Made by a program: the position numbers and the translations under genes
Shown here: positions 2,009 to 28,956 of the stretch, in pieces
How the letters are laid out: every line of letters starts with the position of its first letter
How positions within the stretch are numbered: the first letter of the stretch is position 1
Assembly (NCBI GenBank): GCA_937924035.1
Contig: CALDTK010000264.1
Location: 1 to 34,699 of the forward strand
DNA length: 34,699 nt
Source: an uncultured Saprospiraceae bacterium
GTDB lineage: Bacteria > Bacteroidota > Bacteroidia > Chitinophagales > Saprospiraceae
Direction of reading: 5' to 3'
The notes under the pieces: model-generated
Seen by the model: only the letters and a program-made list of their open reading frames with translations
What the model was told of the DNA's origin: nothing
Database searches by the model: none

Positions 2009-5000
2009 GTGAACTTCTTTTCTACCCGCCATTCGACAACATTCGTGTTGTTTCTCTTTTTTTTAACTACCCTAGGATTTCAGCTACATGGCCAACAAGT
2101 CGTACTAGCCACTGAAGATTTTGATGGTGGAGGTATAGGATATACCACTACATCCGAATTCAATAGTGGAACGGGTAATAATCATTTTAATGATACTGAC
2201 GGAACTGACATTAGTAATGTTAGTGGACCCTATAGTTTTGAGGGTGGAGGCAATGTATTTTGGGCAGCCGAAAATGTTGATGATCCAGCAGGTAACGGTG
2301 CTAGCGAACAGTGGCTCGTCACCAATAATTTTCCCATTTCTGGATACGAAGGCATAGAGGTATGTATTGACATGGCTGCAGGCAATAATGGCCTTGGAAA
2401 TCTTGGGACGTACGATCAAAGTGACTATGTATTCGTTCAATACAATACCGATATACAACCGCTATACAGAGATGCTATTAGTTTTAGATGGAGTCCAAAT
2501 CCTTTCGACCCAAATGATTTATTTAATCAGCCGCTACATCACGATGTGAATAGAGATGGCGACGGGAGTGATGGTGTACAAATCACCACCACAGCGCAAA
2601 ATTTCTGCTATATAATTCCAAATATCCATACTATTGATGTTAGTGCTACAATGATGTCTATCAGGTTACTTGTACGAATGGATGCTAATAGCGAAGAAAT
2701 TGCTTTTGACAACATTTCGGTTTCAGGAATTCTTGCCGCAGATACTGAGCCACCTACTTCAACTTGTAATGATCCAATAGCTGTTAATGCAGATTTTTGC
2801 CCCATTGGAATCGGCCCAGGAACCCCAAATGGTGGTTGGGGCAATATTCCAGCAAGCGGAGTTATTTCACTCCAGGTCGGACCAGTTCATCAGGTTGATC
2901 TCAATTGCCTGATGGATAATGTATCACCTATTGGTGACTTACAAATTAGATTAGCTTCTGCTCAATATATTGGAACCCCGACATCATGCAATAGAGTAAT
3001 CGAGTCAGTCTACGATATCAGAGATGCGGCAGGTAACATTGCGCCTAGTCTGGTTAGGGTTCATTACACGCTGGAAAATAATGATCCAATAACTCAAATT
3101 CCATCACCAGGAATTACGTGTGGTGAAACCTTTACGATGCAGTCTGAAAATGACTATATATACATTGTAGAGCCACCAACAGTCGGAAGTGGGACTGCAT
3201 ATAACTGCTGGTCAGGTATTAGATTCCAAACTCCTACTTTCGAAACACCTTGTGGTGATTTCACGGATTTTGCGATAAAGTTCTCAGCAGAGAGTACTCC
3301 TCCACCCATCCAGCTACCTACAGATCAGTTCTTTGGTGGTACGAGTGGAAACCCTGTTCCATCTTTTCCATATGTACTACCAGCTCCATCCATAGCATTT
3401 TATGGAAGTGCTACAACATGCTCTGCCACAACAAGAGTTACGTATGAACTTACCGATGAGTGCGGTAAAGTATTTACCTGTTTTTTCCTAATGGAAGTAG
3501 AAGACAGTCAAGATCCTCAACCAAATTGTAATAACATTTCGGTCAGCTTGCCTGGATCAACACCATATACGCTAACTCAAGCAGACATAGATGCGATTGG
3601 AGCGGGTACTACTGACAATTGCGGCATTGACCCAACGAGCATTACGGTAACACCTAATACGTTTACTGCGGCAGATGCTGGCGATAATACAGTAACCTAT
3701 GAGGTTTCCGACAACTGTGGCAATACGGCAACGTGCTCTGCAATTGTCTCTGTTGTTTGTGAGTTGAACGTTGACTGTTCCAACATTATAGATCAAGATC
3801 TTGAGTGCCGAACAGATTTACCGCCAGTAGACTTTGATCTACCCATCATTGTTGACTCCTGCGGAATTGTCGTACAATCTGCACTCACTATTATCCCTGG
3901 CAACTCCGGCTGCCCTGGTGATGAAGTCATTATTCCAAGAACGTATTTCATACAAGATGCTGCTGGTAACATGGAGCAATGCGAGCAAACTTTCACAATA
4001 GAAAGTACTATTCCTCCAACAATTACTTGTCCCATAAACCTCACACTTGCTTGTGGTCAGGATACTAGTCCTGCAAACACCGGAATGGCTACAGGAACGG
4101 CTAGCTGTGGCAACTTTGCCTTGAATATCACCTTTGAGGATGCGTCAACGCAAACAACGACCGGGTGCAATCAATTTGATTACACGATAACGCGCACTTG
4201 GAAAGCTACAGATGACTGTGGAAGAGAAACAACCTGTGATCAACTCATTACAGTTCAAGATAACGATGCGCCCGTTGTTTCGTGCTCAGAGATAACGAAT
4301 ACATTTAGTCGATGTGCAGGCTCTATTTTCCCGAACACACCTAGTGGTTCTTGGTTTCCCGTACCATCGTCGGGCACTTTCCTGACCGCGGTAGGAGGAT
4401 CGTCTATCACTACAGTCGACCTCAACGGTTGTGTCGTTGACAATTGCAGTGACTTCGCAGACATGGAATGGGAGCTCGTAAGTTCGTACGAAGAAAACAG
4501 AACATCATGCTCTGTGGATATCATAAATGAGCTTGGAATTAGAGATGCCTGTGGAAATGAAGCTGCAACTACAATCATTGTGCGAAGCACAATTGTAGAT
4601 GACGAAGCTCCAGTTGTTACTTGCGCAGACTTCACTACAACATCAACAGGATGTTCATCTGGATTAGGAGCAAATACTCCGAACGGCGTTTGGATTCCTG
4701 TTGGCAGCGATGGTGGTTTCACAGCTGCCTCTGGTGGATCTTTTTCTATACCCGTTGACCTCACTTCATGCGTATCTGACAATTGCACAGATTTAGCTGA
4801 TATAGAATTCACGCTTCATAGTTCTTATGAAGAGAATAGAACGAGCTGCCAAGTGACCTTGGTAAATGAATTCTCGATAAGAGACGCATGCGGAACTATT
4901 GCCGCAGACCGAGTCATTACTCGAATTACAATTGTAGACGATGAGGCGCCAAGTGTTACTTGTTCAGACTTTGCAGCTACGATGACAGGATGTCCTGCGC

Positions 5001-8000
5001 CACTAGGTCCAAATACTCCAACTGGTTCTTGGTTCCGAGTGGGGACTGATGGAGGATTCACGGCTGTGTCAGGAGGAAGTTTCTCTATCCCAGTCGACCT
5101 CACCACGTGCCTAACCGACAACTGCTCAGATCTTGCAGACCTCGAACTTTCACTTCATAGTTCTTACGAGGAAAACAGAACTTCTTGCGCTGTAACCTTA
5201 GTCAATGAATTCTCAGTGCGAGATGAATGCGGCAATGTTTCTGCAGACAGAGTCATTACTCGAATCACTATTCAAGATGATGAAGCACCTGTGGTTACTT
5301 GTACAGAATTCTCAGAGACCTTCAATCGCTGCCCTGATAGTGTATTCCCCAATACACCAAGTGGTAATTGGCAAAACGTGCCCGCCGGCGGAATAGTACT
5401 AACTGCTATTGGAGGAAGTTCAATAGGAACGCTAGACTTAAACTGCATATCGGATAATTGTAGTGCCATTGGTGAACTACAAATTAGACTGACAAGATCA
5501 TTCGAAGAAAATCGTGTTCCTGGGTGTTCAGTTGATATCTTAAATGAGTATGAAGCCCGTGATGCTTGCGGAAATATATCTCCAGATTTAATTCTCTTTA
5601 GAGGACAATTGAGATTTGACGGACCACCACCTGTGCTCACCGCTCCAATTGCATTCCCACTAGAGTGCGGCATGTCAGCTGATCCATCCGTAACGGGTAT
5701 AGCAACTGCAACTTCTGGTTGTGGATCTCCAGTAGTTACTTACTCTGACCAATCAGCAGCAGGTCCTTGTGGCCTTTCTGAAATCATTACACGTACTTGG
5801 CTAGCCACTGATGGTTGCGGTAAAACGAGTGATGCAACTCAGCTCATCGTGATCACAGATAATACACCACCAGTAATTACAACTGCACCAGATGTAACGG
5901 TCAATTGTGATGACGACACAACTCCGACCGGTACTGGTATGCCTACTGCAACAGATGCATGTTCAGCAGGACTACCAACTATTACTTTCGCTGATGATGT
6001 ACGACCAGGAACGTGTCCAGGAAACTATATTATTCGACGTACATGGACCGCAACCGATGAGTGCAATAATTCAGATTCATACCTTCAAATAGTTACTGTT
6101 CAGGACATTGAAGGACCTGTTTTTGCCCAAGCTGTAGGCACACTGAATGCAAGTTTCTTAAACGATGCATTCGACCTAACCTATGGATCAGGAACTTGCG
6201 TCACAGCACTTGACCTCACTGGCTTAGAAGCTGCTATCAATGCGGCCCTAACCGCTGGCGCAACAGGCTCTATCGGAATAGTTTTCCCTACGCCAAGCGA
6301 TGCATGTAGTGATCCAATTGTGACGACAGCCGTTGCTGTTCTGAATGTTCGTTCGTCCGCTTGTAGAGCTGTGATTGATGTAACGTATACATCTACTGAC
6401 GCATGCGGTAATAGCTCTGACTACCTACAACAAATAGAAGTCAATGATCGATTAGCACCTACTATTTCTATCCCTGTAGCAGACCTTATTGTTGAGTGCG
6501 ATATGCCTACCGATGTAGCAGCAACAGGCACACCAACATTTGTAGATGAATGCCCTGCAGCTATCGTAGCTGTTACACATGCAGACGTTGAAGTAGCCGA
6601 TCCAACCTGCCCGAACGGGAAGACGATCACTAGAACCTTTACAGCCGAAGACCCTTGTGGCAATACTTCGAGCGTTGTTCAGATCATTACAGTTGTTGAT
6701 ACTGAAGCACCTGTGTATACTTCATTCCCACGTGACACAACGGTAGAGTGCTCAACCTTAGCTGGTATGAGAAACAATGCTACCAATGCAAAGTCCGTAG
6801 CTGATGCACAAGGATTCCCAGCCGTAGAAGACAATTGCTCTACTGGCTTATCAGCTCCGTTTACAGACGTCTTTACACTCTCAACGAATTGTCCTACCGT
6901 GGGTATCTATGAGCGAATATTTGCTCCAATAGATGACGGTTGTGGCAACATACTTCCTGCGCGAACTTTAACGATTACAATTATTGACACTCTCGCACCA
7001 GTATTTACATCAATTCCACTTGGAGGAGATTTTGATTGCACTGTAGGTATTCCACCTGTCGGCACAGCAACAGCTGTTGATTGTGATCCAAATGTGGTGG
7101 TTACTGAAGTAGATGATGAAACGATTGTTGGGGTAAACCAAGTGGTCAGTATCACTGAGCGTACCATTACGGCACGCGACTTCTGCGGCAATGAAACCAC
7201 GCAAGTCGAGACGTATCGTGTTCTTGATCAAGTTGGACCATTCTTGCTTAGCTGTCCTGACAATTTGGGGCCAATCGTAGCAAGACCGGACGATCGTGCT
7301 CAAGTAAACTTTGCTTCACCTGTCTTTGATGACAACTGTAGTTTTAGCGTAAGCGGAACACACGTCAGCGGACAGGACTTCCCTGTTGGAATAACTCAAG
7401 TTGTATTCACAGCCGTGGACGGCGGAGGGAATATTACCATCTGCGAATTTGAAATTGAAGTTGTAAAAGCGTTGAATTTAACTTGCTTGGATCAAAACAT
7501 TAGTATTGATGCTCCCGCAGACCTCACTAGGAGCGACATCAACTTCCCGTATGCTGCCACTGATTGTAGTGCTTGTCCGCAAGGAGAATCTCTCCCGAGC
7601 CTAGATTACTTAGGATACTTCCGCGGTCATCGATACTATGTTAGCGCTCCTGGAGATACACGCTCTTGGACTGAAGCTCAACGTCATGCGGTAAGCCTTG
7701 GAGGTCGCTTGGTAGAAGTGAATTCAGCTGAAGAGAACTTGTTCCTACAGCGCGAACTTCCATACGACCAAGCCTTGATAGGCCACTACACAGGACCTCG
7801 TTCTTCAACCTGGACAGGAACCTTCTCTCCAGTGATCTTCGAAAACTGGGCTCTAGGATTCCCAATAACAGGCACCAACGAGTTCTTTGCAATGCTCCAG
7901 TCTGCTGACGGAACGCATACCAATGCAAACCACAGTGAGCAACCATACATCATCGAATTCCCTTGCGTTGAAATCGAGGTGATCGATATGCCATCTGATA

Positions 8001-9145
8001 GTCTTTTTGACCGTGGTACACACTGCATTGTTTATGCGGCAGAAGACTTATGCGGAAATCGTGATACCTGTCACTACACGTTCGGGGTCAACACTTTTGA
8101 TGTAGTCTATTGTGCACCTACAGGCGATAACATCACACAAGAGGAGGATTACTTCATCACTAATGTTTCTATTGGAGCTTTCGCCAAAACACTTGATGCG
8201 TCTGACCTCTACATCCAAACGCGCGACACCGTAGAGTTAGATGAAGATATCGCTACTAACATTTCATTAAGTGCGGAGACGAGTGGCATGGAAGGAGCTT
8301 CGTTCCCAGCATACTGGCGCGTATGGGTCGATGCGAATGGCGATGGTGATTTTTACGAAGCTGGAGAAATGATTTATGAGGCATGGGGCGATGCAACCCA
8401 TACTGGGTCGATCATGCTTCCTTCAAGTCTGTCAACTGTGAATCCTGCTCGCATCCGAGTGGCATTCTCTCGCTTCGCTTACCCTGAACCTTGTGGTGAT
8501 AATCCGTTTGGCGCAGTTGTAGATTTCAGTTTGAAGTCTAATTCTACCGTTGCCCCTCGACTAGCTCTGCGGGGTATGCGAGGACAAGGAATGCATACGC
8601 TCACCACAACAAGTGTTGAAGATCCACAAGTAGACATGTACATGATGCTTAGAGGTGCAAGCGCTGACGATCTCACTAAGATCGACTTTTGGCAAGCTAC
8701 CTTTGGTAACAATGAACTTCGTGAATATGAAACAGAGGATCTTGATCCTATGCCTTCAGCATACTATCAAGCTGTAGCTCTCGATGATCGAGGCTTCATT
8801 ATTCGCTCGAGTAATGTTATTCAATTGACCATGCCGACTAGGCGGGATCCTGTCAAAGTTTTCCCTAATCCTGCTGTCCATGAAGTCTACGTAGACTTTG
8901 GTCATATTGACGAGGATACCTCTATCGAGCCGAAAGATGGAAAAGGTGAGATCATCTTATTTGATCCACTTGGACGTATGATTCAAACCCAAGCATTTGA
9001 ACTTGGTGTGAAGCGAATAAGAGTTCAACTTCCCGATCTCGTCTCAGGGTTTTACACGCTGCGCGTAACACGACCGAACAAGCAAGCGAAAAATGTTCGC
9101 ATAATGATCGATCAATCGGCGGAGATTAGAACCCCTCGGGCATAA
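2009..9145 (+). CDS. Giant HYR-like repeat surface protein with CTLD, GEVED and T9SS domains
   Basis: Predicted secreted adhesin-like protein of 2378 residues. The only plausible start is GTG, giving a short N-terminus and a hydrophobic signal segment (FVLFLFFLTTLGF) ending near GQQ. Residues about 245-358 and 751-1203 carry five copies of a ~113-residue cysteine-rich repeat; the last four are in tandem. Elsewhere HYR-like immunoglobulin-fold units recur, marked by DN(T/D)APxV starts and ACGN or ECGN turns. A C-type lectin-like domain follows at about 1866-1986 (SWTEAQ, GGRLVEVNSAEEN), then a GEVED-like domain at about 2050-2175 (WVDANGDGDFYEAGE). A T9SS type A sorting domain closes the protein (VKVFPNPA at about 2281, GFYTLRV near the end). 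By family knowledge such proteins cross the outer membrane by T9SS and attach to the surface or are released. The ligand is unknown. Confidence 0.93.
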   Translation: MNFFSTRHSTTFVLFLFFLTTLGFQLHGQQVVLATEDFDGGGIGYTTTSEFNSGTGNNHFNDTDGTDISNVSGPYSFEGGGNVFWAAENVDDPAGNGASEQWLVTNNFPISGYEGIEVCIDMAAGNNGLGNLGTYDQSDYVFVQYNTDIQPLYRDAISFRWSPNPFDPNDLFNQPLHHDVNRDGDGSDGVQITTTAQNFCYIIPNIHTIDVSATMMSIRLLVRMDANSEEIAFDNISVSGILAADTEPPTSTCNDPIAVNADFCPIGIGPGTPNGGWGNIPASGVISLQVGPVHQVDLNCLMDNVSPIGDLQIRLASAQYIGTPTSCNRVIESVYDIRDAAGNIAPSLVRVHYTLENNDPITQIPSPGITCGETFTMQSENDYIYIVEPPTVGSGTAYNCWSGIRFQTPTFETPCGDFTDFAIKFSAESTPPPIQLPTDQFFGGTSGNPVPSFPYVLPAPSIAFYGSATTCSATTRVTYELTDECGKVFTCFFLMEVEDSQDPQPNCNNISVSLPGSTPYTLTQADIDAIGAGTTDNCGIDPTSITVTPNTFTAADAGDNTVTYEVSDNCGNTATCSAIVSVVCELNVDCSNIIDQDLECRTDLPPVDFDLPIIVDSCGIVVQSALTIIPGNSGCPGDEVIIPRTYFIQDAAGNMEQCEQTFTIESTIPPTITCPINLTLACGQDTSPANTGMATGTASCGNFALNITFEDASTQTTTGCNQFDYTITRTWKATDDCGRETTCDQLITVQDNDAPVVSCSEITNTFSRCAGSIFPNTPSGSWFPVPSSGTFLTAVGGSSITTVDLNGCVVDNCSDFADMEWELVSSYEENRTSCSVDIINELGIRDACGNEAATTIIVRSTIVDDEAPVVTCADFTTTSTGCSSGLGANTPNGVWIPVGSDGGFTAASGGSFSIPVDLTSCVSDNCTDLADIEFTLHSSYEENRTSCQVTLVNEFSIRDACGTIAADRVITRITIVDDEAPSVTCSDFAATMTGCPAPLGPNTPTGSWFRVGTDGGFTAVSGGSFSIPVDLTTCLTDNCSDLADLELSLHSSYEENRTSCAVTLVNEFSVRDECGNVSADRVITRITIQDDEAPVVTCTEFSETFNRCPDSVFPNTPSGNWQNVPAGGIVLTAIGGSSIGTLDLNCISDNCSAIGELQIRLTRSFEENRVPGCSVDILNEYEARDACGNISPDLILFRGQLRFDGPPPVLTAPIAFPLECGMSADPSVTGIATATSGCGSPVVTYSDQSAAGPCGLSEIITRTWLATDGCGKTSDATQLIVITDNTPPVITTAPDVTVNCDDDTTPTGTGMPTATDACSAGLPTITFADDVRPGTCPGNYIIRRTWTATDECNNSDSYLQIVTVQDIEGPVFAQAVGTLNASFLNDAFDLTYGSGTCVTALDLTGLEAAINAALTAGATGSIGIVFPTPSDACSDPIVTTAVAVLNVRSSACRAVIDVTYTSTDACGNSSDYLQQIEVNDRLAPTISIPVADLIVECDMPTDVAATGTPTFVDECPAAIVAVTHADVEVADPTCPNGKTITRTFTAEDPCGNTSSVVQIITVVDTEAPVYTSFPRDTTVECSTLAGMRNNATNAKSVADAQGFPAVEDNCSTGLSAPFTDVFTLSTNCPTVGIYERIFAPIDDGCGNILPARTLTITIIDTLAPVFTSIPLGGDFDCTVGIPPVGTATAVDCDPNVVVTEVDDETIVGVNQVVSITERTITARDFCGNETTQVETYRVLDQVGPFLLSCPDNLGPIVARPDDRAQVNFASPVFDDNCSFSVSGTHVSGQDFPVGITQVVFTAVDGGGNITICEFEIEVVKALNLTCLDQNISIDAPADLTRSDINFPYAATDCSACPQGESLPSLDYLGYFRGHRYYVSAPGDTRSWTEAQRHAVSLGGRLVEVNSAEENLFLQRELPYDQALIGHYTGPRSSTWTGTFSPVIFENWALGFPITGTNEFFAMLQSADGTHTNANHSEQPYIIEFPCVEIEVIDMPSDSLFDRGTHCIVYAAEDLCGNRDTCHYTFGVNTFDVVYCAPTGDNITQEEDYFITNVSIGAFAKTLDASDLYIQTRDTVELDEDIATNISLSAETSGMEGASFPAYWRVWVDANGDGDFYEAGEMIYEAWGDATHTGSIMLPSSLSTVNPARIRVAFSRFAYPEPCGDNPFGAVVDFSLKSNSTVAPRLALRGMRGQGMHTLTTTSVEDPQVDMYMMLRGASADDLTKIDFWQATFGNNELREYETEDLDPMPSAYYQAVALDDRGFIIRSSNVIQLTMPTRRDPVKVFPNPAVHEVYVDFGHIDEDTSIEPKDGKGEIILFDPLGRMIQTQAFELGVKRIRVQLPDLVSGFYTLRVTRPNKQAKNVRIMIDQSAEIRTPRA
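4259..5617 (+). repeat. Four tandem 339-bp units encoding a ~113-residue repeat
   Basis: Units begin at 4259, 4598, 4937 and 5276, an exact 339-base period, each with a D(D/N)(E/D)AP start. Conserved landmarks are a cysteine after the start, NTPxGxW, a GG segment, a CxxDNC core, SYEENR or SFEENR, and RDACGN or RDECGN. Units two and three are the most alike. A fifth, more diverged copy lies at about 2741-3080. The exact spacing and graded similarity point to intragenic duplication. Confidence 0.9.
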
Positions 9146-12333: not shown

Positions 12334-13659
12334 ATGAAGTCTCTATGCCATACCCTAATTCTTCTCGCCACAATAGGAATTATTGGTGTTCTAAATGCAC
12401 AGTCTCTTTATTTCCCGCCTCTTGATGGAGATAGCTGGGAAACCATGTTTGCAACTGAGGCAGGCTACTGCGATACCGATTTCAATAGCCTAGATTCACT
12501 ACTTGAGGCAGCCAACTCGAAGGCCTTTATCTTATTGAAGGACGGGAAAATCGTACACGAGCAGTATTTCGATTCCTTTACGAAAGACAGCTTATGGGTT
12601 TGGAACTCTGCAAGCAAAACCTTGACTGCGGCGCTCGTCGGTATTGCAGTCCAGGAGGGTCAACTCGACATCAATGATATGACTTCAGTCTACCTAGGAA
12701 CGGGATGGACATCAGCGCCTCAAGAGAAAGAAGACAAGATTACAATCTGGCATCAGCTTACAATGACAAGCGGGTTGGACTATGCTACTGGTGACCCGTA
12801 CTGCACTGAGCCGTCCTGTTTAATCTACCTTGCAGATGCAGGCACGAGATGGTCGTATCACAACGGCCCTTACACACTTTTGGACAACGTACTACTCTCA
12901 GCAACTGGTCAAAGTTTAAATACTTTATTCAGAACAAAAATTAGAGATAAAACTGGAATTACTGGCCTATTTTTTCGCATTGGATACAATAATGCATTTC
13001 TTAGTAAACCTCGTAGTATGGCACGATTTGGATTACTAACGCTCAACAAAGGAATGTGGGACGGAACGCCGATTCTTTCCGATACTGCTTATATCAGACA
13101 GTCAACTACTACTTCTCAATCGCTCAATCCTTCTTATGGATACTTATGGTGGTTAAACGGCAAGTCCACGTATCGCTTACCTGGATCTCAAGTCAACTTT
13201 CCTGGACCGATATCACCTTCAGCACCTAGTGATGCAGTAGCAGCAATAGGTAAGGATGGCCAGATCATTTGTGTCATTCCAAGTACGAATGAAGTTTGGA
13301 TACGTATGGGCAATAAGCCAGAAGGTGCTAGTCAGTTAGTTGCAAGCGTGCTTTTTGAAGACATTTCTAAAGCAATTAAAAATGAACGCTGCACATCTAG
13401 CCCAACAGCTCAGCCTTCGCCAAAACCTACTTTTCGCATCCAAACTAATCCTGTGGGTGATCAACTTCAGTTAGCAGAGACGGAAAGCTTGGCTCGTGTC
13501 GAAATCATCGATACGAATGGACGCAGAATGCTTGCGAAAGAAGGAAACTTGCCGAACTACATTGATGTAAGCCACCTTGCAAACGGTACCTACACCGTTA
13601 TCGGTTGGTCATCAAATGGCGATGGAATTGCGAAACGTTTTCTGAAGGTTTTGAACTAA
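12334..13659 (+). CDS. Secreted serine hydrolase (beta-lactamase/PBP-like) with T9SS tail
   Basis: A 441-residue exported protein. Signal peptide: MKSL plus a hydrophobic stretch ending at about LNAQS. The catalytic domain belongs to the serine beta-lactamase-like superfamily (class C / EstB type). The SxxK nucleophile motif is Ser92-Ala-Ser-Lys95, followed by the second motif Tyr175-His-Asn177. No clear KTG or HTG box is visible. From about residue 370 a T9SS type A sorting domain follows (RIQTNPVGDQLQL, then SHLANGTYTV), so the enzyme should be exported across the outer membrane. It could be an esterase, peptidase or inactive binder; antibiotic hydrolysis should not be assumed. The start ATG follows an AT-rich leader with no Shine-Dalgarno sequence. 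Confidence 0.92.
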   Translation: MKSLCHTLILLATIGIIGVLNAQSLYFPPLDGDSWETMFATEAGYCDTDFNSLDSLLEAANSKAFILLKDGKIVHEQYFDSFTKDSLWVWNSASKTLTAALVGIAVQEGQLDINDMTSVYLGTGWTSAPQEKEDKITIWHQLTMTSGLDYATGDPYCTEPSCLIYLADAGTRWSYHNGPYTLLDNVLLSATGQSLNTLFRTKIRDKTGITGLFFRIGYNNAFLSKPRSMARFGLLTLNKGMWDGTPILSDTAYIRQSTTTSQSLNPSYGYLWWLNGKSTYRLPGSQVNFPGPISPSAPSDAVAAIGKDGQIICVIPSTNEVWIRMGNKPEGASQLVASVLFEDISKAIKNERCTSSPTAQPSPKPTFRIQTNPVGDQLQLAETESLARVEIIDTNGRRMLAKEGNLPNYIDVSHLANGTYTVIGWSSNGDGIAKRFLKVLN

Positions 13660-21930: not shown

Positions 21931-24900
21931 CTAGTCTAGAGAGATCCGGACCACGGGGTTTCCGGAAGGGCACTCTATGTCTTCACAATCTGTATCGCCG
22001 TCCCCATCATCATCGATTCCATTGTCACAAATTTCTGTAGGTGACAATTGTAGACCGAAATCTATGTTATCTAAAAATGAATTAGCTATCACCGGAATAA
22101 GCCCAGTTCTACCACTGTTCGAAGGATTTCCATCGGAATCTGCATTCGCGTCTCCACCTTGCCCGCTAGCAGAAAGTGTTGCCCCAGTGGGAATCTGAAG
22201 GCGTACTCGATACGAAGCCTGTGTAAGATTATCAAAAAAGAAATACCCAGGATTCCCGGATTCATCAACACCAGATTGAGTTGTCGCCAAAACAGTATTA
22301 CCATTTGACAATAACTCCACGGTCACACCATTAATTCCAGCAGCAACTCCTTCATCTTGGATGCCATTCGCGTTAGCATCGTTCCAAACGTAGTCGCCAA
22401 TAGCTCCCAAACCTGTAGGCACAAGTGAGAGGTCCATCGAAAAGTTGAAATCTGTATTCGTTACGGTAGTGATATCAGAAATAGCTCCCGAAATTCCGTT
22501 TGACGTATATACCGTTCCGTCACTATCTAACTCAGGGTCAGCACCTTGTTGCTTAGGACCAATAGAAAACGTTGGTGGTTTTACAAAGTAGACAAAGTAG
22601 TTTCCTGAACTCAGCCCAGGAAAGAGGTAGCTACCATCACCAGTTGTACTAGTAAACCCAATGTAGGTATCTGTACTCGTATTTGCGATTCCGTCACCAT
22701 TGTCTTCATAAAGCTCTACACGAACGTTATTCACTCCAGGTTCACCAATGTCTTGAATGCCATCACCATCTGTATCTGACCATACGCGATCACCAATTAC
22801 ACCTGGGACCATACTCATAATTTGCAGGCCAGTCTTCACTGGCTCCGATGGGAGAAGTACTGAACTTGAACCGTCTACGGAGGCTACAAATCCCGCAGAA
22901 TTATAAGCCACATCTCCAGGGACAACTCCTGGTTGAGAAAGCACATCTATTGGCGTACGCATAGGCCACTCAAATGTGAGCGTGTCATTAGGTTCTATCA
23001 AAACGTTACCAAATTCAACTTTAATAGAATTTACACTCGTAATATCTGCTGGAGGAACGATCGTCCAATTAGCATTTTGACATCCTACCGGATCTGTTGT
23101 AAGAAATCCATCTGCTGCTCTGCATGGATTTGGTGCAGTTGAATAATAAACCACTACACCTGTTGGCGCAATTACAGGCCCGATCAAATTTGGTCGCCAA
23201 GCTGAGTTTCGTTGTTGTGGATCTATAATACCTACATCTCCCACCTGAGGAAAAATATCTAGGAATGTAAAGTCGCGTAGATTGACATTACCTTGATTTA
23301 CAATAGTCAACTTATAGTCAGCCAATCCTCCTGGCAATGTTTGTCCTTCAGCAGGAAAAGCCGAGTAACCATTGTCCAGACTTCCTTTCACTGTTAAGTT
23401 AGAAGAAATAGCGATGTAATCAGAGATGACAATAGGTGTTTCAGCGTAGCACATATTCTCTGAACTATTCAAATCACCATCAAGGTCATGTTGGTCGACT
23501 AATTCTTCGACAGTACAACTCTCTATCACATCAGAAGAAGAAGCGAAGACTCTTAATGGTATTCCTCCCATATTAGCAACAGCCTTGTTATTCGCTTTTG
23601 CCCTGAAGTTAAAATCAAATAAACCATCTATTGGTAAACTCCCACTCCATTTTATTCGAAGAATGGAATTTCCAGCACCGTCAAAATCTTCTACGTACTC
23701 AAGTGCCGGAGCCCCAACCAATCCATCTTGCCGATTCGAGACAAAAGAACCAGGAACATACTCAGATCCTTTAGGGAAATAGATGATCCCCATAAAATTA
23801 TCCATAGTACTTCCTGAAATAGATTGATTATGAATATAACTCGAAAATTCAATTTCATCACCTACTGAAAAAGGATTTGTGAACCCTGATTCTCTTTCCA
23901 AATTAATATAAACGGAAGGCCCCGTAAGTGGCTCAGTAACATCGAAATCGACACAATGCGAATCCAGAATAGCACCAGGAGTCGTTGAAGATGTTGTAAC
24001 GCAGTTGGTGATTGTCCCTGGAGGAGTACCATTCCGCACACGATAGCTTAACCAGATGCGACGGTAGGATTCGAATACATTAGACCTATCTCCATAAGAA
24101 AACCGAACTTGAGTAAGATATTCAGAACCACCGAAAGCCAGGCCTAGATCAGACAATTCAACTTCTCTGCCGTCCCATGATTTCATTGGGCTTGCTGAGT
24201 AGGTTTGCCAGGTAGAATTTAAATTGGTTTGGTACTGAAGGGTCACAAAACTAGAGTTAGGATCAGCGGCGTCAGAGTATTCTCCTACCGTGATTCTAAA
24301 TACTTCCGTTTCGTAAGGAATGACATCTGTGACTGTCAAATCTGTAAGTACCTCTGTCCCCGAGTTCCTTACGTAGATATTATACCCAGAGTATCCTCCA
24401 GGATACACATTTGGATTGTCTACCCCTTTGTTTACCCCCGAACTTGCATCAGTACTATGAAATTGATGTGAAATTGCATCAGTAACAGTTTCTGGTCCTT
24501 TACCGACTGGCGTTGATGTGACAGATACATTGTTAGTTACAGTCTGCCCTAGATTATTTGTAGCAGCATCATAGCTTACAATGAATCTAACCCACCTACA
24601 CTCCCCAGATGACAAACCACCTAGAGTCCAATTGGCCGTATGAGTTCCTGCATCATAGTTTGACGAAAGAATACCAGAAGTACCATAATCAAACCTTTCA
24701 AACGTAGCAGTAGCTGGAAGCTGGTCTTGGACTGTTATTACTCCAAGGTCCAATGTTCCATCTTCTATCTCATTGTGCTCGCCATTACAAATAGTTATGC
24801 CGTAAACGGTCTCGTTCCCTATACCCGGTTGGCCTAACACATATTTGGAAGCGGTCAAACGAGAATGGGCCTCAGCGGTAATCGTATAGCTAGAATTAAC

Positions 24901-25353
24901 AGAGGTTGCTCCATCTGCAGAAAACACACCACTCAGCGTTGCTGTCTGACCATCAGGTGTGACTCCATTAGGAAAGCGTACCCTAACGGCTACTTCTCCT
25001 GTAGTACCAGCCGATAAAGGATCTACGAATTCAAACCAGGCTTTTTGCGTACCGGCATCGTAGCCCGAATTTGCAATGTGAGGAGAGTTTACGGTCTCAA
25101 TAAACTCGAGTGTAGAAGGTATACCAATCTCTAAGCGCGCCTGATTAGCTGCTTGATTAGTACTTGCACATCTGTACTGAAATCTGACTCGCAATCCTAC
25201 TCCAGTCAATCTAGGACCAGTTGGTCCTGAAGAAGTGAGTTGCAGGTTGACTTGCGCTCCTAGTTGGTCTGAATAGACACATAGAAGCAAAAAAAGCAAC
25301 GAAGCCACTATATAGGGTAGCTCCAACCAGCTGTTTCGTTTTGTGTTGATCAT
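21931..25353 (-). CDS. DUF11/SdrD_B repeat surface protein, paralog A
   Basis: A 1140-residue exported protein. Signal peptide: PYIVASLLFLLLCVYSDQLGAQ. The N-terminal ~850 residues are a chain of beta-sandwich DUF11-like domains with recurrent TVTDVIPYETEV-type motifs and YDAGT elements. Two SdrD_B (Cna-B-like) domains follow at about 851-974 (GDRVWSDTDGDGIQD, VELYEDNGDG) and 981-1102 (GDYVWNDANANGIQDEG). A calcium-loop-like segment ICDNGIDDDGDG (about 1104-1116) lies near the end, which is GNPVVRISLD. No T9SS type A or B tail is recognisable. It is the downstream one of two tandem paralogs on the minus strand. Surface-adhesin or matrix role is inferred from architecture. Confidence 0.9.
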   Translation of the reverse strand: MINTKRNSWLELPYIVASLLFLLLCVYSDQLGAQVNLQLTSSGPTGPRLTGVGLRVRFQYRCASTNQAANQARLEIGIPSTLEFIETVNSPHIANSGYDAGTQKAWFEFVDPLSAGTTGEVAVRVRFPNGVTPDGQTATLSGVFSADGATSVNSSYTITAEAHSRLTASKYVLGQPGIGNETVYGITICNGEHNEIEDGTLDLGVITVQDQLPATATFERFDYGTSGILSSNYDAGTHTANWTLGGLSSGECRWVRFIVSYDAATNNLGQTVTNNVSVTSTPVGKGPETVTDAISHQFHSTDASSGVNKGVDNPNVYPGGYSGYNIYVRNSGTEVLTDLTVTDVIPYETEVFRITVGEYSDAADPNSSFVTLQYQTNLNSTWQTYSASPMKSWDGREVELSDLGLAFGGSEYLTQVRFSYGDRSNVFESYRRIWLSYRVRNGTPPGTITNCVTTSSTTPGAILDSHCVDFDVTEPLTGPSVYINLERESGFTNPFSVGDEIEFSSYIHNQSISGSTMDNFMGIIYFPKGSEYVPGSFVSNRQDGLVGAPALEYVEDFDGAGNSILRIKWSGSLPIDGLFDFNFRAKANNKAVANMGGIPLRVFASSSDVIESCTVEELVDQHDLDGDLNSSENMCYAETPIVISDYIAISSNLTVKGSLDNGYSAFPAEGQTLPGGLADYKLTIVNQGNVNLRDFTFLDIFPQVGDVGIIDPQQRNSAWRPNLIGPVIAPTGVVVYYSTAPNPCRAADGFLTTDPVGCQNANWTIVPPADITSVNSIKVEFGNVLIEPNDTLTFEWPMRTPIDVLSQPGVVPGDVAYNSAGFVASVDGSSSVLLPSEPVKTGLQIMSMVPGVIGDRVWSDTDGDGIQDIGEPGVNNVRVELYEDNGDGIANTSTDTYIGFTSTTGDGSYLFPGLSSGNYFVYFVKPPTFSIGPKQQGADPELDSDGTVYTSNGISGAISDITTVTNTDFNFSMDLSLVPTGLGAIGDYVWNDANANGIQDEGVAAGINGVTVELLSNGNTVLATTQSGVDESGNPGYFFFDNLTQASYRVRLQIPTGATLSASGQGGDANADSDGNPSNSGRTGLIPVIANSFLDNIDFGLQLSPTEICDNGIDDDGDGDTDCEDIECPSGNPVVRISLD

Positions 25354-25521
25354 TATGAGACTTCTTAAGAGCTATTTTTATCAAGAAGTGAGCCAACACT
25401 AATTTTCAATATATGTACTTCCTCTCAACACCATGAGCTTGCCTCCATGATATATCAAAATAGAGAACGCCCAAAATAGAATGTTACCAGGCTAAGGGTA
25501 ATTTCTAATTACAATTAGACT

Positions 25522-28500
25522 TTAATCAATGTCGATACGTACAACAGGATTTGCAGGCGGACACTCTTGATCGAGACAATCGATAAATCCATCCCCGTCA
25601 TCATCAAATCCGTTGTCACATATTTCCGCAGGTGGCAATTGAAGGCCAAAATCAATATTATCTGTAAATGTATTTGCAGAAATAACAATCAAACCAGTAG
25701 CTCCACTATCTGCTGGATCCCCATCTGAATCTGCATTTGAATCGCCGCCTTGCCCACTTGCAGAAAGTGTTACACCTGCTGGAATTAAAAGACGTAGCGA
25801 GTAAGATCCTGGAGCAAGATCATCAAAAAAGAAATAGCCTGGCTTCCCAAATTCATCTGGGCTGGTTTGTGTTGTCGCCAATACTACACCAACACTCGAA
25901 AGCAATTCAACACTTATACCATTGATTCCGGCAGCTACTCCTTCGTCCTGGATTCCATCTGCATTTGCATCATTCCAAACATAGTCGCCAATAGCCCCTA
26001 AACCTGTTGGCTCCAAACCGAGATCTATTGAAAAATTGAAGTCAACGTTTGTAACTCCTACAACATCCGAAATTGCTCCTTCAATTCCATTTGATGTATA
26101 AGGTATTCCATCACTATCTAATTCAGGATCCAATCCTTCACCTTTAGAGGCTATGGAAAATGTTGGGGGTTTTGAGAAAAATGCAAAGTAGTTTCCACTC
26201 GGAAGATTTGGGAAGAGGTAATTCCCATCACCAGCAGTACTTGTGAAGCCTACATATGTATCTGTAGATGTATCTGCGATTCCATCACCATTATCTTCAT
26301 ATAATTCAACACGAACATTATTTACACCTACCTCACCAAAATCTTGAATTCCATCACCGTTTGTATCCGACCATACACGATCTCCAAAAACGCCAGGAGT
26401 CATGCTTCGTATCGCCAATCCAGTCTTCACTGGCTCTGAAGGCAGCAAAGTGGAGCCTGATCCATCGACGGTAGCAATAAATCCAGTCGAATTATAGGCT
26501 AGATCTCCAGGACTTACTCCAGGCTGAGAAAGTACATCAGTTGGTGTGCGCATGGGCCACTCAAATACCAACGTATCTTTTGGTGCAATAAGGGTACTTC
26601 CGAATTCAACCTTGATTGAATTAACGCTCGTAATATCGGCAGGAGGTACTATCGTCCAATTGGGCGCTTGACATCCTGAAGGATCAGAACTAAGAAAACC
26701 ATCAACTGCCCGACATGGATTAGATGCCGTTGAATAGTAAACAACCACTCCACTTGGTGCGTCTACTGGCCCCACCAAATTTGGTCGCCACGCAGAGTTT
26801 CGTGCCTGTGGGTCGATGATTCCAACATCTCCTACTTGAGGAAAAATATCAAGAAATGTAAAATCTCTAAGATTGACGTTTCCTTGATTTACAACGGTGA
26901 GACGATAATCCGCTAAGCCACCTGGCAACGTTTCGCCTTGCTCCGGAAAACTAGAGTATTCTGTATCCAGGCTTCCTTTCACCGCTAATTCCGAGGATAT
27001 TGCCACATATTCAGAGACATCAATCTCAGCTGTCCTGAAACAAATATCCTCTGACGTGTTCGCGTCACCATCTAAGTCATCTACATCTGTCTCATACGAG
27101 TTAGAACATTCATCAAGAGAATTCAAAGAAGAAACAGCCCACTTAAATTCAAGTGCACCCGGGCCAGCAACTGCTTCCGTTCCAATCAAAGCCTTAAAAG
27201 TAAATCTTAAAATCTGCCCTACCCCTAAATCACCGTCTGAACCACTCCACTTTATCCGCAGAATACTATTCCCGTCTCCATCAAAATTTTCGACGTATTC
27301 TAAGTCTGGAGCGCCCACAAGATCATCTTGCCTATCAATAAGTATAGAACCAGGTACAAATGAAGATCCTTTAGGAAAATAGATAATCCCCATTAAATCA
27401 TCAAGGGCAGCTCCTGCCTCAGTTCTGTTATTGACAGAACATTTGTACTCAACTTCATCTCCGACAGAAAAAGGATTACTGTATCCAGGCTCAAGCGTCA
27501 TAGCTAAATAAGCTGCAGGACCTGAATAAGGCGCTAAGATTTCAAAATCTGTACAGTCAGTACTAACACTTGCTCCAATTGTAGAAGTTGAACTAGTTAC
27601 ACAATTTGTAATTGTTCCTGGAGGGGTTCCAGACCTGATCCTATAATAAAGTTTTATATCTTTATAAGATCCAAAAGTATTACCTCTATCTCCATAAGTG
27701 AATCTAACTTGAGTTAAATACTCTGGGCCTCCAAGGGTCAACCCCAGTTCGGAAATGTAAATCACTCTACCATCCCATGCCTTCAATGGACTGTCTGAAT
27801 AAGTTTGCCACGAAGAGTTTAAATTAGTCTGATATTGAAAGGTTACGAAATTTTGATCAGCTCCTGCAATATCAGCATACTCACCAACCTCAAGCCTATG
27901 AATCTCCGTTTCATATGGGATTACATCCGTTAAAGTGACATCATTCAATACTTCAGTACCAGTATTATTTATTCCAATACTATAAAAGGCATAGCCTAAC
28001 GGATATCTACTAGGCGAACTGGTCTCTTTCCTTACATCAAGGCTTGAAGACGATGCATTGAGAACATGAGAAACTGCATCGCCCATCGTGATAGGAGACT
28101 CTCCCACAGGTGTGGTAGTCACTGAAACCGTATTGGTAATCGTTTGACCAACAGAATTAGCCGGCGCGTCATATCGCACAATTACCCTGACCCACCTACA
28201 TTCACCTGATGACAGGCCGGTTACTGTCCAATTTGCGGTATGTGTTCCGGCATCATAATTAGTAGTAAGAACCCCTGTAGACAGTGTACCAAAGCTGACA
28301 AAAGTTGCCGTAGCAGGCAACACATCTTCAATTGATAAGGTTCCTAAATTTAAAGTCCCTGTTTCAACTTCACCGTCTTCACCATTACAAATAGTAAAAC
28401 CGTAGATCGTCTCATTGCCGATGCCGGGTTGCCCCAAATCGTACTTACTTACCGTTAACCTTGATTGCGCCTCAGAAGTAACTGAGACACTGCTGCTCAC

Positions 28501-28956
28501 CGAAGTAGCGTCTTGCGCAGAAAATAAACCCTGCAAGCTCGCTACAGTTCCATTTGGAGTTGTTCCATTCTCAAAACTCACCCTCAGAGCAACCTCTCCT
28601 GTAGTTCCTGCAGCAAGCGGATCAATAAACTCAAACCAAGCGGTGCTCGTCCCTGCATCGTACCCAGAATTTTGAATATGAGGAGAATTACGAACGCTTG
28701 AAAATGTCAACTCTGCAGGAACAACTACCTCTAAACGGGCTTGATTAGCGGCTTGAACTGTACTTGCGCAGCGATATTGAAATCGTACGGAGAATATTTC
28801 TCCTGAAGGTTGGGGTGTGGTTGGAGCACTTGAAGTAAGCTCCAGGTTGACTTGCGCCAATGTAGTGTCAAACGAGCAAATACTCGCGACTAGCAAGAGC
28901 AGAATTGGTAGTATACCAACTCTTCTATTTATCGTAATTATAAATTTCAATGACAT
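25522..28956 (-). CDS. DUF11/SdrD_B repeat surface protein, paralog B
   Basis: A 1144-residue close paralog of the downstream gene, with the same domain order throughout. Signal peptide: GILPILLLLVASICSFDTTLAQ, then VNLELTSSAPT. DUF11-like chain to about residue 850; SdrD_B domains at about 854-975 (GDRVWSDTNGDGIQD) and 982-1105 (GDYVWNDANADGIQDEG); then ICDNGFDDDGDG and the end ANPVVRIDID. The two genes are 168 bases apart and probably arose by tandem duplication; local identity of the SdrD_B and end regions is clearly high by eye. As in the paralog, the usual C-terminal sorting domain is absent. It may be cotranscribed with the downstream gene, but an intergenic promoter cannot be excluded. 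Confidence 0.9.
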   Translation of the reverse strand: MSLKFIITINRRVGILPILLLLVASICSFDTTLAQVNLELTSSAPTTPQPSGEIFSVRFQYRCASTVQAANQARLEVVVPAELTFSSVRNSPHIQNSGYDAGTSTAWFEFIDPLAAGTTGEVALRVSFENGTTPNGTVASLQGLFSAQDATSVSSSVSVTSEAQSRLTVSKYDLGQPGIGNETIYGFTICNGEDGEVETGTLNLGTLSIEDVLPATATFVSFGTLSTGVLTTNYDAGTHTANWTVTGLSSGECRWVRVIVRYDAPANSVGQTITNTVSVTTTPVGESPITMGDAVSHVLNASSSSLDVRKETSSPSRYPLGYAFYSIGINNTGTEVLNDVTLTDVIPYETEIHRLEVGEYADIAGADQNFVTFQYQTNLNSSWQTYSDSPLKAWDGRVIYISELGLTLGGPEYLTQVRFTYGDRGNTFGSYKDIKLYYRIRSGTPPGTITNCVTSSTSTIGASVSTDCTDFEILAPYSGPAAYLAMTLEPGYSNPFSVGDEVEYKCSVNNRTEAGAALDDLMGIIYFPKGSSFVPGSILIDRQDDLVGAPDLEYVENFDGDGNSILRIKWSGSDGDLGVGQILRFTFKALIGTEAVAGPGALEFKWAVSSLNSLDECSNSYETDVDDLDGDANTSEDICFRTAEIDVSEYVAISSELAVKGSLDTEYSSFPEQGETLPGGLADYRLTVVNQGNVNLRDFTFLDIFPQVGDVGIIDPQARNSAWRPNLVGPVDAPSGVVVYYSTASNPCRAVDGFLSSDPSGCQAPNWTIVPPADITSVNSIKVEFGSTLIAPKDTLVFEWPMRTPTDVLSQPGVSPGDLAYNSTGFIATVDGSGSTLLPSEPVKTGLAIRSMTPGVFGDRVWSDTNGDGIQDFGEVGVNNVRVELYEDNGDGIADTSTDTYVGFTSTAGDGNYLFPNLPSGNYFAFFSKPPTFSIASKGEGLDPELDSDGIPYTSNGIEGAISDVVGVTNVDFNFSIDLGLEPTGLGAIGDYVWNDANADGIQDEGVAAGINGISVELLSSVGVVLATTQTSPDEFGKPGYFFFDDLAPGSYSLRLLIPAGVTLSASGQGGDSNADSDGDPADSGATGLIVISANTFTDNIDFGLQLPPAEICDNGFDDDGDGFIDCLDQECPPANPVVRIDID

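Follow-up and report, generated by a model that had tools for sequence, protein, structure and literature searches.

A short C-terminal module, one disulfide repeat plus a 12-residue tail, as a candidate sorting or anchoring signal on tandem giant proteins of an uncultured Saprospiraceae bacterium

P0001 and P0002, two tandem giant proteins of an uncultured Saprospiraceae bacterium, share a C-terminus in which a single probable acidic double-disulfide repeat (ADDR; NCBIfam NF033662) is followed by 12 residues of the form CPxxNPVVRIxxD and the stop codon. We suggest, with a probability of about 0.58, that repeat and tail form a short C-terminal module which replaces the T9SS domain of relatives; its sorting or anchoring role is one that we infer from sequence. 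Both genes lie in the window, i.e. the whole stretch of 34,699 nucleotides analysed here (contig CALDTK010000264.1), and their features are listed in Table 1.

Table 1. Features of the two tandem giant genes and their products (positions of the window)
Feature	Position	Strand	Basis
P0001, 1140-aa DUF11/SdrD_B protein	21931..25353	-	ORF and Pfam
P0001 signal-peptide-like start, residues 1-33, then A↓Q	25255..25353	-	cleavage site by eye
P0001 SdrD_B region, about residues 849-1101, two stretches	22051..22809	-	Pfam; region start by eye
P0001 ADDR, residues 1108-1128	21970..22032	-	NF033662, 38.9 bits, cut-off 41
P0001 12-residue tail PSGNPVVRISLD	21934..21969	-	translation
P0002, 1144-aa DUF11/SdrD_B protein	25522..28956	-	ORF and Pfam
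P0002 signal-peptide-like start, residues 1-34, then A↓Q	28855..28956	-	cleavage site by eye
P0002 SdrD_B region, about residues 853-1105, two stretches	25642..26400	-	Pfam; region start by eye
P0002 ADDR, residues 1112-1132	25561..25623	-	NF033662, 42.6 bits, cut-off 41
P0002 12-residue tail PPANPVVRIDID	25525..25560	-	translation

The reading frames, signal peptides and common domain chain described in an earlier note on this DNA were borne out, i.e. both minus-strand frames start with a hydrophobic, signal-peptide-like N-terminus followed by A↓QVNL, and Pfam assigns DUF11 and two SdrD_B stretches to each. The C-termini read ICDNGIDDDGDGDTDCEDIECPSGNPVVRISLD-stop and ICDNGFDDDGDGFIDCLDQECPPANPVVRIDID-stop, respectively. 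The NF033662 scores in Table 1 are those of the 38-aa ends scanned alone, while in whole-protein scans both proteins stayed below the cut-off. Judging from this model, the shared ICDNG(I/F)DDDGDG segment, which the earlier note had taken for calcium-loop-like, is most likely one ADDR; the common NPVVRI end stands, with the corrections that it is preceded by P-(S/P)-(G/A) and followed by exactly three residues in both proteins, not three or four. P0001 and P0002 are 67 % identical over 1132 aligned positions, and dS across the whole pair is 2.8, i.e. synonymous sites are near saturation. Within NPVVRI, five of the six codons differ, all synonymously, with no non-synonymous change. Considering these synonymous-only changes at such a dS, as well as the recurrence of the end in other genes and genera, the shared end goes beyond chance.

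Similar ends were found elsewhere in the genus. A third paralogue in the same genome (L135, contig C281) carries the same chain and SdrD_B and ends in CPGANTAVRVNRS-stop. It has inner ADDR repeats downstream of SdrD_B and reaches its end, which is of the same type, 1960 residues later. In another genome of the genus (G075), a protein ending in CPGANVVVRVIID-stop is encoded on C184 and is syntenic with P0001 through an ankyrin gene (71 % identity) and a Cys/Met-enzyme gene that aligns as two pieces (86 and 78 %). Two genus proteins without the chain, i.e. one on C205 of G075 and a 5'-cut fragment on C38 of the window's own genome, end in CPSVLTVSTISQN-stop and CPGVGVVGTVNN-stop, respectively. 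The stop follows 11-12 residues past the ADDR in all six genus cases. As for the PVVRI end in unrelated architectures, for which the earlier note advised to look, a similar end occurs on chain-less proteins, but PVVRI is no universal signature; it is a genus-level form, its P being replaced by T or V in relatives and VR missing from two genus tails.

None of the known sorting domains was detected at the two ends. A six-frame search of the whole genome at E up to 0.001 gave 98 type A and 27 type B T9SS matches, of which just two, both type A, fall on this contig (8858-9091 and 13447-13620); type B is absent from it. From the placement of all contig matches, P0001 and P0002 carry no T9SS domain and none lies downstream of either frame at this threshold, in agreement with the claims that such domains are absent from these ends though present on other proteins of the window, and that no hidden continuation exists. 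Type A (PF18962/TIGR04183) and type B (TIGR04131) models gave no match to the two ends at E up to 10. Membership in CVP-CTERM (NF058574, a 17-position model) was rejected at the same limit. A CTERM signal with a membrane helix was rejected on hydropathy, which over 19 residues peaks at 1.05 and 0.86 within the final 60 residues.

In other genera, members of the same protein family carry an ADDR and a related tail, mostly CCxAxAPxLSK, although conservation of these short tails from genus to genus is weak. We classified 30 relatives whose ends are intact and distinct, applying the ADDR, type A and type B models at E up to 0.01. Half of them (15/30) end in ADDR plus tail and six in a CVP-CTERM-like tail (assigned by eye; one passes E 0.01), while two have a T9SS end (L130, type A; L141, type B) and seven show neither of these tails nor a T9SS domain. 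Among the ADDR ends, L140 has only CPCSGSN and L185 is unlike the others. The sequences themselves show that the module exists, that it is conserved, that unrelated proteins carry it too and that within one family it takes the same end position as T9SS domains. In the tree, L130 is sister to L133, an ADDR-tail protein, with an SH-aLRT of 100. Relatives running into a normal sorting domain had been named as grounds for giving up the idea of a real end; such relatives do occur (2/30), but since L130 adjoins an ADDR-tail protein, they read as an exchange of ends. End labels are clustered on the tree (17 changes; as low in 2/200 shuffles), suggesting that such exchange is occasional.

A terminus that is real rather than broken, one of the two options in the earlier note, is therefore well supported by sequence comparison: the syntenic gene, the third paralogue and chain-less genus proteins all retain the end, as do, in the form of ADDR plus tail, family members in other genera. 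It is very improbable that a stop codon removed a normal T9SS domain before the duplication, an option for which the T9SS domains of two relatives would speak, but which is opposed by this retention, also on unrelated proteins, and by the lack of any T9SS match downstream at E up to 0.001; we reject it because the compact layout with ADDR and tail is found in two other genera as well (L129, 1160 aa; L134, 1180 aa). Another possible form of loss, in which recombination between ADDR repeats deletes the intervening stretch while the final repeat stays joined to the original end, giving rise to short forms that carry the tail along, is in keeping with the inner repeats and distant end of L135 and with the finding of compact and long versions in several genera. 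This appears improbable as the explanation, as it accounts for a change of layout but neither for the retention of the end nor for its sharing by unrelated proteins, and the window proteins do not group as sisters with the compact L129 and L134.

The ADDR is terminal on seven proteins that have a 5' end and no match to P0001, i.e. the module appears conserved at the extreme C-terminus of unrelated, putatively exported proteins, as expected of a short sorting signal. Tails on unrelated proteins occur in genome-specific dialects, and the sharing of a dialect by chain and non-chain proteins of one genome was as high in only 2 of 20000 shuffles (25 tails). With three proteins with incomplete 5' ends dropped (22/25 tails), 108 of 5040 permutations, about 2 %, were as high; parts of three of the unrelated proteins in this test share 23-32 % identity. 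Over the 128 aa immediately preceding the repeat, the C38 fragment is 50 % identical to L132, which comes from another genus, yet the two differ in their tail dialects. Among 93 ADDR-like motifs with a known stop, the distance from ADDR to stop was under 40 aa in 25, 40-119 aa in none and longer in 68, a histogram shaped by ascertainment, many loci having been picked by the ADDR-plus-tail profile.

Wider searches gave the following picture. In a named genome scan, most of P0001 was matched at about 30 % by Candidatus Albibeggiatoa (L095), whose longest frame ends without an ADDR tail, and Chloroheliaceae (L096, cut); three Saprospiraceae records were also returned. Across 298 genomes of the order, five matches to ADDR plus tail in other families (E 1e-9) reach only model position 22-29 of 33; in the four caught by the motif the repeat is not terminal, while the fifth (L299) was not caught. 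A first profile of the CVP-like tails (class II) gave 30 loci; among the matches listed, nine are in frames >400 aa and eight of these lie no more than four residues from the stop, while those in short frames look like chance.

Could the end be no more than a cap that naturally stabilises an extracellular protein leaving by another route, its tail being read by nothing? The ADDR also occurs inside proteins, where it too can run into a strand-like stretch (L024, L053), and tail dN to the G075 orthologue (0.50 from P0001 and 0.33 from P0002, over 12 residues) is not below that of the aligned proteins (0.20 and 0.23). In addition, no partner was found, i.e. no PorP/SprF-type shuttle gene among the 10 window genes scanned, nor any noticed by eye beside the other tail genes. 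We nevertheless consider such a cap unlikely, given that the tail dialect tracks the genome on unrelated proteins, that ADDR tails hold the end where sister proteins carry a T9SS domain, and that the distance to the stop is so uniform in the genus. A predicted structure of the last 182 residues of P0002 was too low in confidence for use (mean pLDDT 36.9, from two sequences).

We thus favour a sorting or anchoring module. Each giant would be a Sec-exported surface-type chain (DUF11-like plus two SdrD_B) with a self-contained C-terminal module, the window's version being a genus dialect of a putative short signal that several Saprospiraceae genera have in common. Once the protein has passed the Sec system, the repeat, braced by its disulfides, would display the tail, a putative strand-forming peptide that is basic in part in many dialects. 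The tail would be recognised by an outer-membrane protein, which may hand the cargo to the surface or retain it there; candidate readers are the T9SS, with a shuttle of the PorV or PorP/SprF kind, or a different machine. A specific form of this proposal is a minimal T9SS signal, with the tail replacing the last strand and basic motif of type A, or type B with its own shuttle. Type A and type B domains within the same family and the many T9SS matches in the genome point in this direction, as do functional T9SS domains of 40-55 residues reported in Prevotella intermedia and the report that, in one P. gingivalis cargo, the final 22 residues are absolutely required (PMC11969387). Still, this form seems rather unlikely, as the ends remain unmatched by type A/B models even at E up to 10, the module has only about 35 residues and no shuttle gene was seen alongside.

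Among known systems, CVP-CTERM (NCBIfam 'putative sorting domain') is likewise a short C-terminal tail with cysteine and proline, borne by surface-type proteins of Saprospiraceae, and similar tails terminate some relatives of the giants; the window tails differ in following an ADDR and in spacing the cysteine from the P/T/V position by four residues, not one. T9SS type A and B domains (TIGR04183/PF18962 and TIGR04131/PF13585) take the same end position in L130 and L141 but are absent from the window ends, and are reported to span about 100 and 150-235 residues, respectively, with five motifs (PMC12618676, PMC10202324). The short P. intermedia domains are, like the window's, shortened C-terminal signals, but are described with recognisable motifs B, D and E (PMC11969387), which by eye the window ends lack. 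The window repeat most likely belongs to NF033662, with one end scoring just above and one just below the cut-off, while its terminal use with a dialect tail falls outside that model. MYXO-CTERM, described as C-terminal with an invariant cysteine (PMC11980579), and other helix CTERM signals depend on a membrane helix with a basic end, in contrast to the window proteins, which have no membrane helix in the last 60 residues.

It is tempting to speculate, if with somewhat less than even confidence, that Saprospiraceae use a further surface-sorting class, i.e. a repeat held by disulfides and followed by about 10-18 tail residues specific to the genus, exchangeable with T9SS type A/B domains and CVP-CTERM-like tails. 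Its reader would be either the T9SS, using a shuttle for short signals, or an outer-membrane machine of its own, and co-evolution with the recognition protein would then account for the dialects. Bacteroidota surface proteins are usually recognised via their T9SS domain, and if the short ending replaces it, many giant adhesin-like Saprospiraceae proteins would be missed by current predictions. The ending would also provide a natural minimal signal for probing what the outer-membrane step reads, and close relatives, one ending in type A and the other in the short module, would be a ready-made pair for that question.

The two tandem proteins P0001 and P0002 share 67 % identity and are encoded on the window contig, C264, of a genome of 4.11 Mb (364 contigs, completeness 85.6 %). 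As the earlier note had described, both have a signal peptide and a common domain chain. The start is signal-peptide-like with A-Q after the signal, DUF11 and two SdrD_B stretches come next, and then one acidic double-disulfide repeat (ADDR, NCBIfam NF033662). The tail, i.e. the twelve residues past the last cysteine of the repeat, reads PSGNPVVRISLD or PPANPVVRIDID, and the ADDR was the sole match to NCBIfam models at E values up to 10.

Genes and Por_Secre_tail matches on the window contig
Feature	Position	Strand	Description
P0001 gene	21931-25353	-	1140 residues
P0002 gene	25522-28956	-	1144 residues
Surface-type gene	2009-9145		2378-aa protein, type A end
Surface-type gene	12334-13659		beta-lactamase-fold protein, type A end
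Por_Secre_tail match	8858-9091		
Por_Secre_tail match	13447-13620		

The T9SS models did not match the ends of P0001 and P0002. When the genome was searched in all six frames with Por_Secre_tail, 98 matches came up (E up to 0.001), with only the two in the table on this contig, and the type B model matched 27 times in the genome, none of them on the contig. Therefore, type A and type B domains are both in use in this genome, and P0001 and P0002 carry neither, which confirms by model searches the earlier observation that such domains are missing from the two giants, yet present, as type A, on other proteins of the window.

Their shared end had been interpreted either as a real terminus or as the result of a truncation before the duplication. 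In G075, the only second genome of the genus in the comparison set, the orthologue of P0001 (71 % identity over 521 aligned residues, start cut by the contig end) has as its next neighbours counterparts of two window genes, the ankyrin gene (71 %) and, in two pieces, the Cys/Met-enzyme gene (86 and 78 %), and ends in ECPGANVVVRVIID. The window's genome also encodes a third paralogue, L135 (1960 aa, start cut off), in which SdrD_B is followed by inner ADDR repeats and TSP3 segments, and then by a terminal ADDR and PGANTAVRVNRS. The same type of end was found in two proteins of the genus without a match to P0001, i.e. a 667-aa protein on G075:C205 with one marginal PKD-like match, ending in PSVLTVSTISQN, and a 5'-cut fragment on contig C38 of the window's genome, ending in PGVGVVGTVNN. 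With P0001 and P0002, these make six proteins of the genus, and they account for six of the 14 ADDR matches in the list for both genomes; in each, 11 or 12 residues lie between the last cysteine of the repeat and the stop. Truncation is rejected on this recurrence, and the end is a real terminus. Five of the six NPVVRI codons differ between P0001 and P0002, every change being silent, and dS across the pair is 2.8, which points to an old duplication and a preserved motif. As counter-evidence, dN measured against the G075 orthologue reaches 0.50 and 0.33 in the 12-residue tail, higher than for the aligned proteins (0.20 and 0.23); thus, conservation concerns the shape of the tail rather than each of its residues.

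The chain (P0001 residues about 37-851) was found in 46 of 298 genomes of the family. The end survey covered 40 fetched regions, six loci already in the set and the window, from a sample of genera, and yielded 30 matching, stop-terminated frames of at least 250 aa with distinct ends, some of which match the chain only in part. According to classes assigned by eye and NCBIfam, 15 of the 30 end in ADDR plus tail (NF033662 also matches 15, as a count rather than by named protein), and six in CPxxxCLPV-like tails (one matched by NF058574 at E up to 0.01). L130 alone closes with a type A domain (TIGR04183, 41.8 bits) and L141 alone with one of type B (TIGR04131, 69.2 bits); the remaining seven end in TATTNPHIMYYRSR (two), ...DF or ...GSF (three) or otherwise (two). 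Relatives running into a normal sorting domain, which the earlier note would have taken as a sign of truncation, thus occur in the form of L130 and L141; as L130 is placed beside an ADDR-tail protein in the tree, this reads as an exchange of ends.

Beyond the window's genus, ADDR tails mostly follow CC-x-A-x-(A/S)-P-x-L-x-K, e.g. DCCGAQAPTLSKF; those of G167 read CPCCKADAPNLNDLNKNDP and similar, and that of L140 is merely CPCSGSN. L129 (1160 aa) and L134 (1180 aa) show the compact layout of P0001 and P0002. Chain proteins with ADDR tails occur in six genera including the window's, of which G068 and G149 may count as one case, as they share a near-identical 3165-aa gene (L093, CAKZUK010000218.1; L094, CALGLU010000022.1); this likeness between MAGs placed in different genera may be due to misbinning, a recent transfer or an error of placement. 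On G167:C53 (63000-113226), four giants (L229, L133, L116 and L119; 6325+, 3612, 2655 and 1407+ aa) lie on the same strand within about 50 kb, three with a CPCC...KKDP/KNDP-type tail and the fourth leaving the contig. The identical TATTNPHIMYYRSR of L142 and L148, from different genera, is a candidate for another conserved short end, and L117, L118, L127 and L224, relatives or kin of neighbours, close similarly in ...V..D..DF or ...DG(T/G)SF, the end of L127 having no NCBIfam match. Outside Bacteroidota, the matches of L095 (JAOXRS010000066.1, Candidatus Albibeggiatoa) and L096 (JACAUC010000354.1, Chloroheliaceae) to P0001 stand at about 30 % and extend over most of its length; an order search at E 1e-9 found no ADDR plus tail outside the family, and weaker relatives may exist.

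A tree built from 38 chain regions grouped the three proteins of the window's genome in one clade and placed L130 (type A) as sister to L133 (ADDR tail), both with support of 100. For 21 rows with seven labels, excluding cut-off and unclassified ends, at least eight end changes are required (minimum possible six). Using all rows and giving cut-off ends their own label, 17 changes were counted; shuffling gave 20.7 on average, and 2 of 200 shuffles were as low. Thus, ends track kinship, yet were exchanged at times, and close relatives can have either a T9SS domain or an ADDR tail in the same place.

In the fetched loci, the ADDR is terminal in 25 distinct frames, 15 matching P0001 and ten not; since L185, L229 and L234 lack the 5' end, seven of these ten are clear. 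Comparing matching with non-matching proteins only, tail likeness within genomes was equalled in 2 of 20000 shuffles for all 25 frames, and in 108 of 5040 permutations (144 with genus labels) after removal of the three incomplete ones. The C38 fragment and L132 (G137) share 50 % identity over 128 residues before the repeat, while their tails differ, each in its own genome's style. L218, L219 and L221, unrelated to P0001, have parts in common with one another, and L216 (ADDR tail) shares a 153-residue stretch (30 %) with L238 (CVP-like tail). L185 (G156:C61) has an unusual tail, DCLPATPGTIMRSNEKE. Among 206 distinct ADDR-like motifs in the loci sampled for this count, the distance to the stop was known for 93, a partly profile-chosen sample, with 25 below 40 residues, none at 40-119 and 68 beyond.

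The CLPV-type ends resemble NF058574, 'CVP-CTERM putative sorting domain', and CVP-like ends were seen in L236-L238, L241-L245, L247-L251 and L254. This model seems to miss true cases, as many C-termini that are clearly of the CLPV type are below its cut-off of 19 bits (L237, 18.6; L249, 16.3; L254, 15.2; L190, 13.5) or unmatched (L251, L191 and L214). It scored above cut-off at six places in three of 150 family genomes and in none of 14 control genomes, five of which had weaker matches. By eye, such a tail ends the frame in 15 of 18 fetched profile matches, which were picked with a preference for long frames, the count referring to ends rather than to chain relatives. Literature searches found neither 'CVP-CTERM' nor 'acidic double-disulfide', nor 'type IX secretion' and 'C-terminal domain' with 'Saprospiraceae' in one paper, and broader searches gave no title about such tails.

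According to PMC12618676, T9SS cargo combines a Sec signal with a C-terminal domain, which in type A has about 100 residues and is read by PorV; in type B, it has 150-235 residues and is read by PorP/SprF-like shuttles, whose genes often neighbour that of the cargo. Two further papers describe a required 100-residue region for type C (PMC10202324), and short domains of 40-55 residues, cleaved and glycosylated, in Prevotella intermedia, as well as a P. gingivalis cargo whose last 22 residues are absolutely required (PMC11969387). ADDR plus tail comes to about 35 residues. MYXO-CTERM and similar anchors, which act via a membrane helix (PMC11980579), do not fit, since the ends of P0001 and P0002 have no such helix. 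As to a possible reading of the module by the T9SS, no shuttle gene was found among the ten window genes scanned or noticed beside other tail genes, and no partner protein was found. The main argument for a related job is that ADDR plus tail occupies the place of T9SS domains in related proteins; on this comparison of sequences, the module would have a sorting or anchoring role, with a probability of roughly 0.58.
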